A DNA stretch of 23,347 bases, from positions 1-23,347 of IMG/VR virus record IMGVR_UViG_3300022925_000184, one strand, 5' to 3'. Source of the stretch: a virus. Shown here in pieces: positions 13,818 to 23,347 of this stretch. How positions within the stretch are numbered: the stretch's first letter is position 1; every line of letters begins with the position of its first letter. The notes beneath the pieces were generated by a model. It had not been told where the DNA came from. It saw only the letters and a list, made by a program, of their open reading frames with translations, and ran no database searches. The position numbers were made by a program, and so were the translations under genes.

Positions 13818-14137
13818 TAGTTCTTCTCCACTACACGGATGCGAACTTCCTGTTCGCGAACAGTTGCATCACTCGCTGTCATACGGCACACAATTTTATA
13901 GGTTGTAAAGGCTGTACCGCTTCCCAGATAAATAGTAGCTATAGTGTTCGTGTTAGTGCGGCTAACTAACTGTAGACCATTTACAATCTGGCTATCTGAC
14001 CACGTTTGTAACACACCATTCTCATCATATATTTTCCAAATAAGCGAAGAGATTGTGTCTGTATCTAAAGCCGGACCCCAGTTTATAGAATAATCTAACT
14101 GGTCATCCGGGTCTTTATCCTGCCATTTAAGAGACAT
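13817..14137 (-). CDS. Small Ig-like structural protein, possible fibre-tail adaptor, 106 aa
   Basis: Residues 1-25 (LKWQDKDPDDQLDYSINWGPAL) lead into a beta sandwich-like domain with IIWKIY-type strands, a GLQLVSRTNTNTIATIYLG middle and a C-terminal YKIVCRMTASDATVREQEVRIRVVEK strand pair. The pattern of D-x-x-L-D-Y...W...L...D-x-I-S...W...G-x-x-G-T-x-Y-x-V/I-x-x-x-x-T-x-D-G/A-x-x-R resembles small proteins annotated as fibre-tail adaptors or tail-tip Ig-like proteins. It precedes the adaptor gene and follows the repeat protein, with TAATG overlaps on both sides. A virion role is likely; the precise place is uncertain. Confidence 0.65.
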   Translation of the reverse strand: MSLKWQDKDPDDQLDYSINWGPALDTDTISSLIWKIYDENGVLQTWSDSQIVNGLQLVSRTNTNTIATIYLGSGTAFTTYKIVCRMTASDATVREQEVRIRVVEKN

Positions 14138-15471
14138 TATGCAGCCCTTCTTTGATTACTTGTTTCTTTTGGTTGGACAGTTACTACCCGGTCACGATTA
14201 TACGCACTCGCTGCTCCTACGGCTACGGAACGTAATATCAAAGCTTCTGGAACAACATGCACTACATGTTTTCTATCGTATGCTGAAGCAACAAATACGG
14301 TTACAATTCCGGTTACTGTCACAGTTCCTATGGAAAAAGTGCCTACAACTCCAGTTGGTGTAACACTGTTGCCAACACCCACAGAACCTATGGAGCCAGT
14401 ACCTGCAACACCTGTTATCGTAACAGTATTACTAATACCTACAGAGCCTATTAAACCTGTAGCTGATACACTGGCTAATGCTTCAGTTGGTTTTTCGTTA
14501 ACCGTGTTTACAAAACCAGTAGCTGATACTCCGGTTAATACCGTAGTGGCACCTAGTCTTGTTACTACTGTATTTACGGAACCAGTAGCTGATACTCCTG
14601 ATAGTGTAATACTACTATCTGCTGTTACGCCAACAGTGTTAACAGAACCTGTAGCAGATACTCCTGATAGTGTAATACTACTATCTGCTGTTATAGTAAC
14701 AGTGTTAACAGAGCCTGTTGCTGATACACTTGCAAGCTTTTCCGTCAAGTTAACTTGTACAGAATTAACTACACCAGTGGCACCTACGCCAGAAGCAATA
14801 GTCTCACTAACATCTACTTCAAATCCACCAACTACTACTGGAGCAATTGTTCCTGTAGAAGACACCCCTGTTAGTGTAATACTGCCATCTGCTGTTGTAC
14901 TGACAGTGTTAACAACACCCGTAGCAGATACGCCGGTTATTGTTACTCTAATACCTGTAGTAGTGTTAACAGTATTGACCGAACCAGTTGCAGAAACCCC
15001 TGTCAGTGTGGTGCTATTACCTATACCAACAGTATTGACAGAGCCTGTAGCTGATACGCCTGTTAAAGTAGTAGTGGCATCCGCTGTTGTATTAACTGTG
15101 TTAACTACGCCTGTAGCAGAAACACCTGTTAACGTGGTGCTAGTATCCGCTGTTGTACTGACAGTGTTAACTGTGCCTGTAGCAGATACTCCGGTCAGCG
15201 TAGTGCTGGCATCCGCTATTGTATTAACTGTGTTAACTGTGCCTGTAGCAGAAACACCTGTTAACGTAATGTTAGCATCTGCTATTGTATTAACTGTGTT
15301 AACTGTGCCTGTAGCGGATACACCTGCCAGTGCTTCACTAACATTTTCTGTGACAGAGCCTACAGACCCTGCGGCACCAACTCCAGTGTTTATAGTTACA
15401 AAGTATTCGCCATACCGTGCAGTGCCGTAGACACCAGTACCATAATTAGCTTGGTTTAGGGTAACGGACAC
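14137..15471 (-). CDS. Tandem-repeat beta-rich virion protein, 444 aa
   Basis: After an N-terminal Tyr/Gly segment (NYGTGVYGTARYGEYFV, residues 9-25), the protein consists of about 17 copies of a 20-22-residue unit with the consensus GVSATGxVNTV and then a variable TxAxxxxTLT linker. The C-terminus (390-444) carries two diverged copies of ASAYxRxxVVxVxPE. The unit looks like a stacked two-strand beta repeat, suggesting a fibrous shaft or a capsid/tail surface protein. No catalytic motif is present. Translation appears to start at GTG 15471, with only a weak ribosome site after the previous stop 13 bases away. Sequence upstream of that GTG is occupied by the preceding gene. Copy number probably varies between relatives. 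Confidence 0.75.
   Translation of the reverse strand: MSVTLNQANYGTGVYGTARYGEYFVTINTGVGAAGSVGSVTENVSEALAGVSATGTVNTVNTIADANITLTGVSATGTVNTVNTIADASTTLTGVSATGTVNTVSTTADTSTTLTGVSATGVVNTVNTTADATTTLTGVSATGSVNTVGIGNSTTLTGVSATGSVNTVNTTTGIRVTITGVSATGVVNTVSTTADGSITLTGVSSTGTIAPVVVGGFEVDVSETIASGVGATGVVNSVQVNLTEKLASVSATGSVNTVTITADSSITLSGVSATGSVNTVGVTADSSITLSGVSATGSVNTVVTRLGATTVLTGVSATGFVNTVNEKPTEALASVSATGLIGSVGISNTVTITGVAGTGSIGSVGVGNSVTPTGVVGTFSIGTVTVTGIVTVFVASAYDRKHVVHVVPEALILRSVAVGAASAYNRDRVVTVQPKETSNQRRAA
14301..15381 (-). repeat. Coding tandem repeat, about 17 units of 60-66 bp
   Basis: Period is 66 bp (22 codons), with some 60-bp units. The units between about 15060 and 15330 are nearly identical at DNA level, for example a repeated ttaactgtgcctgtagc segment, which indicates recent duplication. 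Units outside that stretch are more diverged. Boundaries are approximate. Confidence 0.8.
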
Positions 15472-20268: not shown

Positions 20269-20282
20269 TATTCTTCTCCAAT

Positions 20283-20426
20283 CTATGCGTAGGTTCCGCC
20301 CCGCTTTTTGTAGGTTTTAACTAACCAAGCACTACCATAAGCACTAGGCCACTTCTTAAATTTCTTTTTAGCTTCAGCTTTTACCTTAGAGTACAAAGCT
20401 TTGTTTTTAGGTTTTGGACTAGCCAT
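20283..20426 (-). CDS. Tiny basic protein, 47 aa
   Basis: ATG 20426 opens a 47-codon frame: MASPKPKNKALYSKVKAEA, a KKKFKKWPSAYGSAWLVKTY block and a KKRGGTYA end. I recall near-identical patterns (SPKPK-x-K-x-LY-x-x-VK-x-EAK-x-KF...WPSAYAS-x-WLV-x-x-YK-x-RGG-x-Y) as free-standing small proteins in marine phages. Fourteen residues are Lys/Arg and one is acidic. It is the first gene after the promoter at 20456-20484, with a GGGGGT ribosome-site-like sequence about nine bases upstream. The next gene starts 14 bases after its stop. The role is unknown; DNA or RNA binding is likely from charge. Confidence 0.8.
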   Translation of the reverse strand: MASPKPKNKALYSKVKAEAKKKFKKWPSAYGSAWLVKTYKKRGGTYA

Positions 20427-20455
20427 TGTATATTTACCCCCGGCAAAGGTTATTG

Positions 20456-20484
20456 CTTATAACATAAATTATAATAGGTGTCAA
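20456..20484 (-). promoter_or_regulatory. Sigma70-type promoter for the basic-protein and lysis genes
   Basis: A perfect TTGACA -35 box (20484-20479) and a TATAAG -10 box (20461-20456) are spaced by exactly 17 bases. The AT-rich spacer also contains TATAAT, so a second overlapping -10 may exist. Transcription would start near 20449, about 23 bases before ATG 20426. The -35 box abuts the GC-rich hairpin that follows the capsid-associated gene. Confidence 0.8.
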
Positions 20485-20506
20485 GGGGGCAAGTTGCCCT
20501 GCCCCC
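20485..20506 (-). terminator. GC-rich hairpin after the capsid genes, terminator-like without U-tract
   Basis: On the transcribed strand GGGGGCA and TGCCCCC pair perfectly (7 bp) around an 8-nt loop; a nested GGGCA/TGCCC pairing is an alternative. It lies 10 bases after the stop of the capsid-associated gene. The following bases are CTTGACACC, not a run of T, so intrinsic termination would be inefficient. It may instead protect the 3' end of the capsid mRNA or lower read-through. Confidence 0.55.
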
Positions 20507-20516
20507 CGACAGTTAG

Positions 20517-20948: not shown

Positions 20949-21929
20949 TTAAGCAACAGTGTCTACAACACCGCGAACGAGTGCTTCTGGGCGAAGAACT
21001 TTACGTCCAAACACATGAAGACCACGAACGATGTCGGAGAAGGTTTCAGTGGACCGAACTACTTCGGTTTTTGCAATGTGAGATGCAGTTGCAACGGCTG
21101 ACATGTGACCAGCCAAAACAACAGCTTCACCTGCTGCTGCAGTAACACCAGTGATGCTAACTGCGTCTGTGCCACCAGCTACGAGAGCAGTTGACTTGTA
21201 GCAGTTAAAGCCAGCAATCTGACCCTGCATTACAAGACCGTTCCGTAGTGGTGAGGTGCCGTCGCCAGTTACCTGAACTTCTGCAAACTTTGCACCGGCT
21301 GAGAACAGCTTGGCGTAGAAAGCAGGAGAAGCAACGAACCAACGGTTCTCTTCTGGAACAGACTGCTCGTCAAGTTCCTTTGCCATTTCTAGCATCAGGT
21401 TGACAGCGTTGTCTGGAGCAGTGTGAACTGCAATCGGTGTACCAGCAGTACCCAGAGCAGTGTTTGTGTTCAACAGGCCACCAGCAAGTGATGCGTCGTC
21501 AGCACCGGCAAGGCCAGCACCGTCAGCAATTGACTGTAGAACATTGAAGTCGTACTTGCGCTTCAAAGAAAATGCACCTGAAGAAGTAGCCAGTGCCTCA
21601 AAGTTAACATGAGACTGACGCTCTTCGATGTCATCAATTTTGAACGCAAATGCGTTTGCTTGGTCGACAATCATTGTTGTCTGGTCGTCAGCCAAGTCTT
21701 GTGGATTAACCACAGAGCCACGTGAGTAGGCACTTACTGTGATTGTAGGTTCTTTAATGATACGTACTGTATCGCCAAAGTTCTCAATTTCGCCAGCGTA
21801 ATCAGTATTCGTGATGTCTTCAGCAACCGAAGCGCGACGAAAAAACTTGAGGACTTTTTGGCTAAAGATTTCCGGTGTAAAGTTACCGGAAGGCAGGTTA
21901 TTGTAACCTGATGCCGAATTAAAAGCCAT
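20949..21929 (-). CDS. Major capsid protein, HK97-fold, 326 aa
   Basis: This is the head shell protein. The N-terminal arm (PEIFSQKVLKFFRRASVAED) is followed by the signature GDTVRIIKEPTITVSAYSRG and then LADDQTTMIVDQANAFAFKIDDIEERQ, read here as landmarks. This 'G-D-T-V-x-I...i-t-v-x-x-Y...l-x-D...l-x-I-D-q...a-F-x-i-D-D-I-e' pattern is characteristic of capsid proteins of P22/T7-like short-tailed and many marine phages. The central Ala/Gly-rich part (about 140-165) and the C-terminal GRKVLRPEALVRGVV also fit. Length is normal for the family. A GGAAGGA ribosome site precedes ATG 21929, and the scaffold gene lies directly upstream, as expected. Confidence 0.9.
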   Translation of the reverse strand: MAFNSASGYNNLPSGNFTPEIFSQKVLKFFRRASVAEDITNTDYAGEIENFGDTVRIIKEPTITVSAYSRGSVVNPQDLADDQTTMIVDQANAFAFKIDDIEERQSHVNFEALATSSGAFSLKRKYDFNVLQSIADGAGLAGADDASLAGGLLNTNTALGTAGTPIAVHTAPDNAVNLMLEMAKELDEQSVPEENRWFVASPAFYAKLFSAGAKFAEVQVTGDGTSPLRNGLVMQGQIAGFNCYKSTALVAGGTDAVSITGVTAAAGEAVVLAGHMSAVATASHIAKTEVVRSTETFSDIVRGLHVFGRKVLRPEALVRGVVDTVA

Positions 21930-21958: not shown

Positions 21959-22870
21959 TTAAGAGTTGAAGTCGATTCGCCCTTCAGACCGCGCCGCGTC
22001 CAATTCACTTTCCAGCTTTTCGAACTCGTGTGCTTTCATCTTGGCGATTTGCGAAGCTTTCCAAATCTTTTTACCGTCTGTAGTTTCAGCCTTGATTTCC
22101 CGTGCAGGGGTTTTTGTTACGGCTTCTGCAGCAGATGCAGACTTGGTTTTCTTCTTTGTAGTCGTTAAGCCTATGTCGGCTTTGTAGAGGTCTACGACCC
22201 GTGCCGCCCATTTCGCATCCGTACTGTTCTTGTAGATGCCATCAGCGATAGAGCTTGGCTGCTCTTCTAACCATGTAAGAAACTGTTGGTCTGCTTTGAT
22301 GTCATTAAAGTCTGGGTGGGCATTGAGAAGCTGCTCGTAAGCTTTTTGTTTCTCTAGTTCCTTTTCCCGTTCCTTAATTGTACCTAGTTCTTCACGGAGT
22401 TTTGCAACCTGTGTTTCGGTCTGCATACTTGAAACCGTCTGAACAACTTCGAAGACATCTGGATAGCGTTCTTTAAACTCATCCAACTCTTCTTGTGTTC
22501 GTGGTGGCGTTACGCCTCGCGGCATTTCTGCTGCACGGTCTGTCATTGTTTTTCTAAGGGTTTCGATTTCGCCTTTGAACTCGTTCACCTTGTCGTCATA
22601 ATGACGCTTCAAGTCGTCATACCTTTTTTTGTAGTCGTGGTCCTCACTGGTTTCTTTCTTTGATTCCACGAAACTACTGCCCTTGTCTTCGTCCTGAGTA
22701 GCCGCTTGGCCTTCTGCGGGGTCAGTCTCCTGTTGGGCTTCTACATTCTCCTCGTCTTCTTCGTCTTTGTAGACTTCATCCCGGTATTTTCCGCGATATA
22801 AGTTAGCGTTGTTGACGGTTCCAAACGAGTCGTTTGCTTTGTTGGCACGGTGGCCTCTTGCTTTTGCCAT
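21959..22870 (-). CDS. Scaffolding protein, 303 aa
   Basis: The protein guides capsid assembly and leaves before or during packaging. Residues 1-30 are basic/polar, 31-64 are strongly acidic (YKDEEDEENVE), and coiled coils are predicted at about 78-112 and 145-182. A conserved-looking NAHPDFNDI block (183-191) precedes a W-containing helix, then a Lys/Ala-rich linker (about 237-262) and a final basic-to-acidic helix (KAHEFEKLESELDAARSEG) that could bind the capsid. High charge, coiled coils and position just before the capsid gene all support the call. GAGGT lies eight bases before ATG 22870. Two look-alike hairpins lie directly upstream. Confidence 0.85.
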   Translation of the reverse strand: MAKARGHRANKANDSFGTVNNANLYRGKYRDEVYKDEEDEENVEAQQETDPAEGQAATQDEDKGSSFVESKKETSEDHDYKKRYDDLKRHYDDKVNEFKGEIETLRKTMTDRAAEMPRGVTPPRTQEELDEFKERYPDVFEVVQTVSSMQTETQVAKLREELGTIKEREKELEKQKAYEQLLNAHPDFNDIKADQQFLTWLEEQPSSIADGIYKNSTDAKWAARVVDLYKADIGLTTTKKKTKSASAAEAVTKTPAREIKAETTDGKKIWKASQIAKMKAHEFEKLESELDAARSEGRIDFNS

Positions 22871-22885
22871 TTTATTTACCTCACT

Positions 22886-22953
22886 AGCGGGGCCACATGG
22901 CTGTGGGTAGCCGCTCCGGTTGTGCTGGGGCCACGAACTCGTGGGTAGCCAGC
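22886..22953 (-). ncRNA. Pair of look-alike RNA hairpins in the scaffold leader
   Basis: Two 30-nt hairpins (22953-22924 and 22915-22886) stand eight bases apart. The first has an outer stem GCTGG/CCAGC and an inner stem CCACGA/TCGTGG; the second has AGCGG/CCGCT and CCACA/TGTGG. Both have the same asymmetric internal loop, CTAC against CC. The stems differ by compensating changes, so the structure rather than the sequence is kept. The second hairpin ends five bases before the GAGGT ribosome site of the scaffold gene. Neither is followed by a T run. I do not recognise a described RNA family; an mRNA control or processing element is likely. Confidence 0.65.
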
Positions 22954-22960
22954 GGATTCT

Positions 22961-23347
22961 TTAGGCTAGGAAACCACCTCGCGCTGCTTGGACAGGCTGC
23001 TGCCCATTCTCTGCTATGCGCTGTTCGGTTTTTCTAATGCCTCGTTTATTAATCTTTTCTAGGCGGTCTTCGCCAATAATCTTTACTAGGTGTGGGGCTA
23101 CGGTTACTTCGCCACTCGACACCGCAATATCTACAAGGTTTGAATGCCGTTCGAAGTCGTCTGTGGACAGACCCCGGCGAACCGCTTCCTTTTGGGCATC
23201 CATAATCATCTTGCGGATATCTTGCTCTCCCGCGAACTCGACGGCAGCCGCATTTATAACGTATGTTCCCTCTGGAGCCTTCATAGGACGGTCGTCAGCG
23301 ACTTTACCGGCTTCGGAGACCTGTGAGGGCGGGCGGTCTACAAAACC
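22961..23347 (-). CDS. Conserved head-region protein, 5' end outside window (at least 128 aa)
   Basis: The frame is open to the window edge, so the real start lies upstream. An in-frame ATG at 23284 falls inside the conserved stretch and is not the likely start. The visible part reads ADDRPMKAPEGTYVINA, then AVEFAGEQDIRKMI, a helix ending RRGLS, SGEVTVAPHLVKIIGED, and finally KRGIRKTEQRIAENG and a GGFLA end. I recall the D-D-R-P...E-G-(T/S)-(Y/F)-V-(I/V)-N-A-x-A-V-x-(F/Y)-A-G block from proteins between portal and scaffold in uncultured marine phages. No function is known to me. It is likely a head-module protein from position. Confidence 0.75.
   Translation of the reverse strand, partial: GFVDRPPSQVSEAGKVADDRPMKAPEGTYVINAAAVEFAGEQDIRKMIMDAQKEAVRRGLSTDDFERHSNLVDIAVSSGEVTVAPHLVKIIGEDRLEKINKRGIRKTEQRIAENGQQPVQAARGGFLA

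Follow-up and report, generated by a model that had tools for sequence, protein, structure and literature searches.

In phage P22, scaffold synthesis is under autogenous control that acts post-transcriptionally, and we know of no RNA site of the hairpin kind that has been defined for it. The MS2-type coat hairpin and the RegA and gp43 operators of T4 are read through a hairpin loop or a bulged A. In such phage translational operators, a hairpin stands beside the ribosome-binding site and a structural or replication gene is controlled through the recognition of unpaired nucleotides. In bacteria, the pan motif RNA, found ahead of pantothenate genes, is a simple stem in which two bulged A residues form a highly conserved unpaired feature; it mostly occurs in tandem, and its authors suggest that it is a dimeric protein-binding motif of 5′ leaders (Weinberg et al. 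2010, PMC2864571). Among RNA 3D motifs, the C-loop is an asymmetric C-rich internal loop whose closing base pairs are included in the motif (RNA 3D Motif Atlas, PMC3854523).

Our results indicate that an ocean phage carries, upstream of its putative scaffold gene, two hairpins with the same asymmetric CUAC/CC internal loop, and that these are very probably a real, undescribed RNA switch controlling the amount of head scaffold made. The window analysed is the whole stretch of 23,347 nt, positions 1-23,347 of IMGVR_UViG_3300022925_000184, with the head genes on the minus strand (Table 1). As in P22, the putative scaffold gene stands ahead of a P22-type coat gene and feedback after transcription is proposed; unlike P22, this lineage has a defined, conserved RNA module, for which there are no functional data. 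The pan motif is the nearest described RNA in architecture, with its tandem stems and conserved unpaired feature. Identity with it is ruled out, as the hairpins have a CUAC/CC internal loop and precede a phage scaffold gene. The likeness to the MS2 and T4 operators lies in the hairpin beside the ribosome-binding site and the unpaired nucleotides; in the scaffold leader, however, what is fixed is the internal loop, with the hairpin loop left free, and the two copies are arranged in tandem, or nested and inverted. The resemblance of the CUAC/CC loop to the C-loop is a lead only, and no sequence consensus for the C-loop was found in the literature consulted.

Table 1. Features of the scaffold leader and its neighbours (coordinates of the window), with hairpins of related phages. 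SD, Shine-Dalgarno site.
Feature	Position	Strand	Sequence or description
ORF upstream of the leader	22961-23347	-	open at the window end; no family match
Gap between upstream ORF and scaffold-like ORF	22871-22960	-	90 nt
Hairpin A (SD-distal)	22924-22953	-	GCUGG-CUAC-CCACG-AGUU-CGUGG-CC-CCAGC; R1 model E = 7e-10
Hairpin A internal loop	22945-22948 and 22929-22930	-	CUAC opposite CC
Hairpin A parts		-	outer stem GCUGG/CCAGC; inner stem CCACG/CGUGG; loop AGUU
Linker between hairpins	22916-22923	-	ACAACCGG
Hairpin B (SD-proximal)	22886-22915	-	AGCGG-CUAC-CCACA-GCCA-UGUGG-CC-CCGCU; R1 model E = 3e-11
Hairpin B internal loop	22907-22910 and 22891-22892	-	CUAC opposite CC
Hairpin B parts		-	outer stem AGCGG/CCGCU; inner stem CCACA/UGUGG; loop GCCA
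SD of the scaffold gene	22878-22882	-	GAGGU, 3 nt past hairpin B
Putative scaffold gene	21959-22870	-	303 aa, phrog_13678; immediately upstream of the coat gene
Major head (coat) protein gene	20949-21929	-	phrog_267; start 29 nt past the scaffold stop codon
HTVC103P / HTVC104P hairpin 1			ACAAG-CUAC-CUUCUA-GAAA-UAGAAG-CC-CUUGU
HTVC103P / HTVC104P hairpin 2			UUAG-CUAC-CUUC-AGUUAA-GAAG-CC-CUAA; abuts AGGAGG
HMO-2011 nested form			GUUGG-CUAC-UCACU-CC-CC...GG-CUAC-GGUGG-CC-CCAAC
Coat-leader RNA motifs			GGA-UUAC-CUGA...UCAG-CC-UCU and GG-CC-YRU...AYR-CA-CC; NUAC/CC loop and CC/CA loop

The family of the scaffold-like ORF has no function assigned in PHROGs. Long helices are predicted for its product (model pLDDT 70.6), a PDB sequence search and a fold search with this model returned nothing significant, and no RNA-binding domain was recognised in the protein. 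The helical model and the place ahead of a phrog_267 coat gene are in keeping with a scaffolding protein. The leader is not, as had first been supposed for the head region, the only 90-nt gap, given that further gaps of at least 90 nt without a listed ORF occur downstream (20269-20516, for example). Elsewhere in the window, a 444-aa ORF (14137-15471) without a family match contains tandem 66-nt (22-residue) repeats at 14453-15339, and possibly encodes a repetitive tail or fibre protein.

Each hairpin is 30 nt long, with outer and inner stems of 5 bp and a 4-nt loop. Both are present in the MFE and centroid folds of the minus-strand leader RNA (-31.6 kcal/mol), and compared with shuffles the leader has a stability of z = -2.19 on the sense strand and z = -0.54 on the opposite strand. 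The pattern common to the two hairpins occurs twice in the window, against 0.02 expected. Folding and pattern count thus confirm the twin 30-nt hairpins, alike in their CUAC/CC loop and different in their stems, that a first-pass annotation had read at this site. Its statement that the stems differ by paired changes also stands, except that the 6-bp inner stem it gave for hairpin A (CCACGA/UCGUGG) would leave a loop of 2 nt, so that 5 bp and a 4-nt loop are more likely. It had set hairpin B five bases before the ribosome site, a spacing that comes down to 3 nt, and it had taken compensating change inside one genome for direct evidence of selection; two units alone would be weak evidence, and it is the relatives that provide the proof.

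An exact scan of viral contigs with GGCTACCCAC-N6-GTGGCCCC found at least 119 stretches, where a rough estimate predicts one or two, and the matches listed lie before the scaffold gene, in tandem, with differing stems. Further loci were gathered by scaffold-protein similarity and from phage records. Since the first 119 loci had been chosen by the motif itself, which is circular, the count was repeated without them. A strict descriptor, which requires CUAC with any dinucleotide opposite between an outer and an inner stem that each have at least 3 bp (8 bp in total), matches 163 of the 214 distinct leaders in the scaffold-similarity set that excludes the pattern-found ones, against a mean of 3.0 and a maximum of 6 in the shuffled control. 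CUAC comes first among all 256 tetramers, the runner-up reaching 23 leaders. With a relaxed loop ([C/A]NAC opposite CC, CA or AC), the number rises to 177 of 214, compared with 6.7 after shuffling. These shuffled counts, with the expectation for the window, rule out a chance origin of the pattern. When the pattern-found loci are included, 252 of 303 leaders have the strict hairpin; the misses, inspected by eye, are mostly nested or variant forms. At two loci (L182 and L319), the start picked by the script falls within coding sequence.

Twenty-two distinct units of equal length were compared for covariation. Paired cells make up 95.5% of the total (65.8% shuffled), 66 cells are double-changed (17.5 shuffled), double changes affect 7 of 9 pairs, and the covariation score is 0.816 versus 0.217 for shuffled units and at most 0.155 for slid controls. 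These units were chosen by descriptor and are thus biased towards pairing; the unbiased support comes from the count of 163 in 214 and from the variety of pair types. Among 214 distinct units, all four Watson-Crick types are used at outer pairs 3 and 4, and the closing pairs hardly vary, with G-C at the outer position in 213 units and C-G at the inner position in 188. When changes are mapped onto a scaffold tree with 301 tips, plain parsimony counts about 53 Watson-Crick-to-Watson-Crick double changes in the SD-proximal hairpin (10+5+5+3+13+6+11), whose closing G-C is unchanged in 212 of 212. In the same hairpin, G-U outnumbers A-C by 25 to 13, a modest point in favour of the sense strand. Taken together, base pairs kept by compensatory changes strongly support, on comparative grounds, a structured RNA element under selection upstream of the scaffold SD. 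The selected structure inferred in the first-pass annotation is therefore borne out by conserved pairing with free stem sequence in relatives. It would have been refuted by the absence of the hairpin upstream of relatives' scaffold genes, or by stems not preserved there, and the opposite was found, most relatives keeping the hairpin.

The position of the element is syntenic: across most relatives it lies in the scaffold 5′ leader and adjoins the ribosome site. The proximal hairpin ends 9-20 nt before the ATG and broadly 0-7 nt before the SD, and the SD starts between -1 and +9 nt from that end in 228 of 231 leaders. The sequence 5′ of the hairpins is unrelated between different relatives. The R1 model, built from the hairpin units, misses the nested form described below; at E < 1e-3 in 22 genomes or records, it finds scaffold leaders only, bar one match in an apparently coding region (G005:C1:14134-14160, E = 5e-4), where the loop is CCAC opposite C. 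This look-alike, GAG-CNAC-CUGC...GCAG-C-CUC, recurs at G002:C1:44310-44336, in what seems to be a conserved coding region in two relatives; it is taken as chance. Searches elsewhere in viruses for the motif with other stems gave, with one pattern, five matches of two kinds, none followed by a scaffold-like gene, and no match with a second pattern. In relatives, the linker nearly always contains AACC, the SD of the window group reads GAGGU, and a linker-SD helix of at least 3 bp is possible in 88% of leaders versus 61% of shuffled ones. Pairing of the linker ACC with the GGU of the SD could mask the SD, an idea that is suggestive, not convincing. A kissing interaction of the proximal loop AGCCA with a distal UGGCU was discarded, as the outer stem of the distal hairpin varies without constraint.

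Several cultured phages carry the element in tandem, single or nested form, among them phages of Pelagibacter, Roseobacter, SAR116 (HMO-2011) and Rhizobium. Those with 24-37% scaffold identity to the window have the hairpin with different stems (see HTVC103P and HTVC104P in Table 1). It is also present in HTVC115P, HTVC033P (with CUAC opposite CA), CRP-9, CRP-235, CRP-2 and HMO-2011. In HMO-2011 and many of its relatives, two loops are nested within one hairpin in opposite orientations; a nested descriptor matches 53 leaders, and a similar nested form was seen by eye in Rhizobium and Sinorhizobium phages. Variants, likewise read by eye, are AUAC opposite AC in Vibrio CHOED and ACAC opposite CC in two Aeromonas phages. 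The element is not universal: Pseudoalteromonas phage Slicky01 clearly lacks the hairpin, and the gap ahead of its homologous scaffold gene measures 25 nt. The distant coat relatives Jace, AP45, Che8 and AGM2, from Gordonia/Rhodococcus, Aeribacillus, Mycobacterium and Brevibacterium, have scaffold leaders of 68-101 nt without the motif. In the Roseobacter phage CRP-345 (MZ892990.1; L387:1354), the annotated scaffold start falls within the hairpin; the annotation is therefore probably wrong, and the true start is probably the ATG following AAAGGAAAACCAA downstream.

The gap between the scaffold and coat genes measures about 150-290 nt in HMO-2011-type phages, compared with 29 nt in the window. 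These longer gaps contain a conserved, structured RNA some 90 nt in length, as seen in the coat leader of HMO-2011 (L127:3176-3415) and in homologous gaps (L243, L287 and L265, for example). Of the 12 pairs predicted by RNAalifold, 10 show double changes; this prediction covers the inner part only, and the outer UUAC/CC stem was recognised by visual inspection. No Rfam match was obtained for the coat-leader RNA. A sigma-70-like promoter occurs in 8 of 71 scaffold-coat gaps and in none after shuffling. The coat-leader RNA is probably a second, related regulatory RNA, and the similar loop ahead of both head-assembly genes hints, provisionally, at a single ligand.

No Rfam 15 family matched the window at gathering scores, none matched 22800-23000 at E up to 10, and none matched eight loci of relatives, which excludes a known Rfam family as the identity of the hairpins. 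In the open-licence literature on HMO-2011-type phages and structured phage RNAs, no account of the hairpin turned up. In our view, the hairpins form an RNA family that is itself new but belongs to an established class, the cis-acting leader RNAs.

Conservation, covariation, location at the SD and the presence of two copies in many leaders are established here; the comparison of sequences does not decide among a protein operator, an RNase site and a switch. We hold with high confidence, in the absence of expression data, that scaffold expression is under cis-acting RNA control. What speaks for a protein-bound translational operator is that the asymmetric loop is invariant, that many leaders hold it twice and that the element abuts the SD. 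Translational control of scaffold through a bound protein seems to us reasonably likely, without binding, expression or probing data, and the best overall reading that we infer, with about the same assurance, is that the hairpins act in cis as an operator of scaffold translation, to which a protein binds via the CUAC/CC loop. Each hairpin would then present one recognition module, the asymmetric loop, usually 5′-CUAC-3′ opposite 5′-CC-3′, with its closing pairs (outer G-C, inner C-G, or U-G/U-A), and the stems would serve as frame only. An abundant phage head-assembly protein, probably, the scaffold itself or the coat, would bind the loop or pair of loops once free protein accumulates and would block the 30S subunit at the adjoining SD; scaffold synthesis would thereby track the needs of assembly. 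Brief linker-SD pairing might add weakly to the repression. No protein would need such control more than the scaffold, and a coat or host protein is still possible. That the scaffold protein binds the hairpins is a tentative idea, without binding data, which we would not call probable; by analogy, P22-like scaffold autoregulation is the leading candidate, and it is unproven.

Other explanations have been considered. The ligand may be a host RNA-binding protein or a component of the ribosome, with the hairpins activating or timing scaffold translation by recruiting or displacing it, without feedback from head assembly. A widely conserved factor could be shared by the hosts concerned, the loop being kept in Pelagibacter, Roseobacter, SAR116 and Rhizobium phages and present as a variant in those of Vibrio and Aeromonas. 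We nevertheless find this unlikely, because the genomes searched have the hairpin before scaffold only, and HMO-2011 types a similar loop before coat, which points to head assembly. That the asymmetric loop is the invariant part, in stems of just about 5 + 5 bp, also bears on the possibility of an mRNA stability or processing element (an RNase III/E site or a 5′ stabiliser) that sets the ratio of scaffold to coat message. A stabiliser or a double-strand nuclease site needs no invariant CUAC/CC loop, and the hairpin is always directly at the SD; this possibility, which draws some support from stable hairpins at a head-region gene junction and from the general resemblance of paired or nested hairpins to phage processing sites, appears to us quite improbable.

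If the element acted as DNA, for example as a protein-binding dyad or as a packaging or recombination site, the RNA fold would be incidental, and it is true that inverted repeats can fold on both strands and that the excess of G-U over A-C is just 25 to 13. Yet free stem sequence with kept pairing would be intolerable for a DNA protein that reads sequence, one strand alone conserves the asymmetric loop, the distance to the SD is fixed, and the window leader beats shuffles in stability on the sense strand only, so that we give this account very little credence. G+C-rich hairpins within an intergenic gap would also fit an intrinsic terminator, or an attenuator, that separates the scaffold and coat genes from those upstream. 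The window leader, however, lacks a U-tract, with AGUGAGGUAAAUAAA directly 3′ of hairpin B; in relatives, the tails downstream comprise the SD and A-rich sequence, and a search of both strands for terminator-like sites at the hairpins was negative. The first-pass annotation had rightly judged a terminator unlikely, and we consider it barely conceivable.

The protein-bound translational operator, which we prefer, may have implications beyond the window. HMO-2011-type phages have been described as dominant in the ocean, with a broad distribution (PMC9038755), and this leader RNA seems to have escaped notice so far. It is possible, as a conjecture that we advance with reserve, that throughout a large phage lineage the leaders of head-assembly genes (those of scaffold and, in HMO-2011-type phages, of coat as well) are marked by an undescribed CNAC/CC module, whether tandem, nested or single. 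The scaffold or coat protein would read this module, and procapsid building would thereby regulate the supply of its own parts. The hairpin marks the true scaffold start codon and aids the recognition of scaffold genes with proteins that resist annotation, and if its ligand is found, it would provide a small modular protein-RNA pair. The hairpins would supply a concrete RNA site for the post-transcriptional control of scaffold synthesis, a question that has been open since the work on P22.
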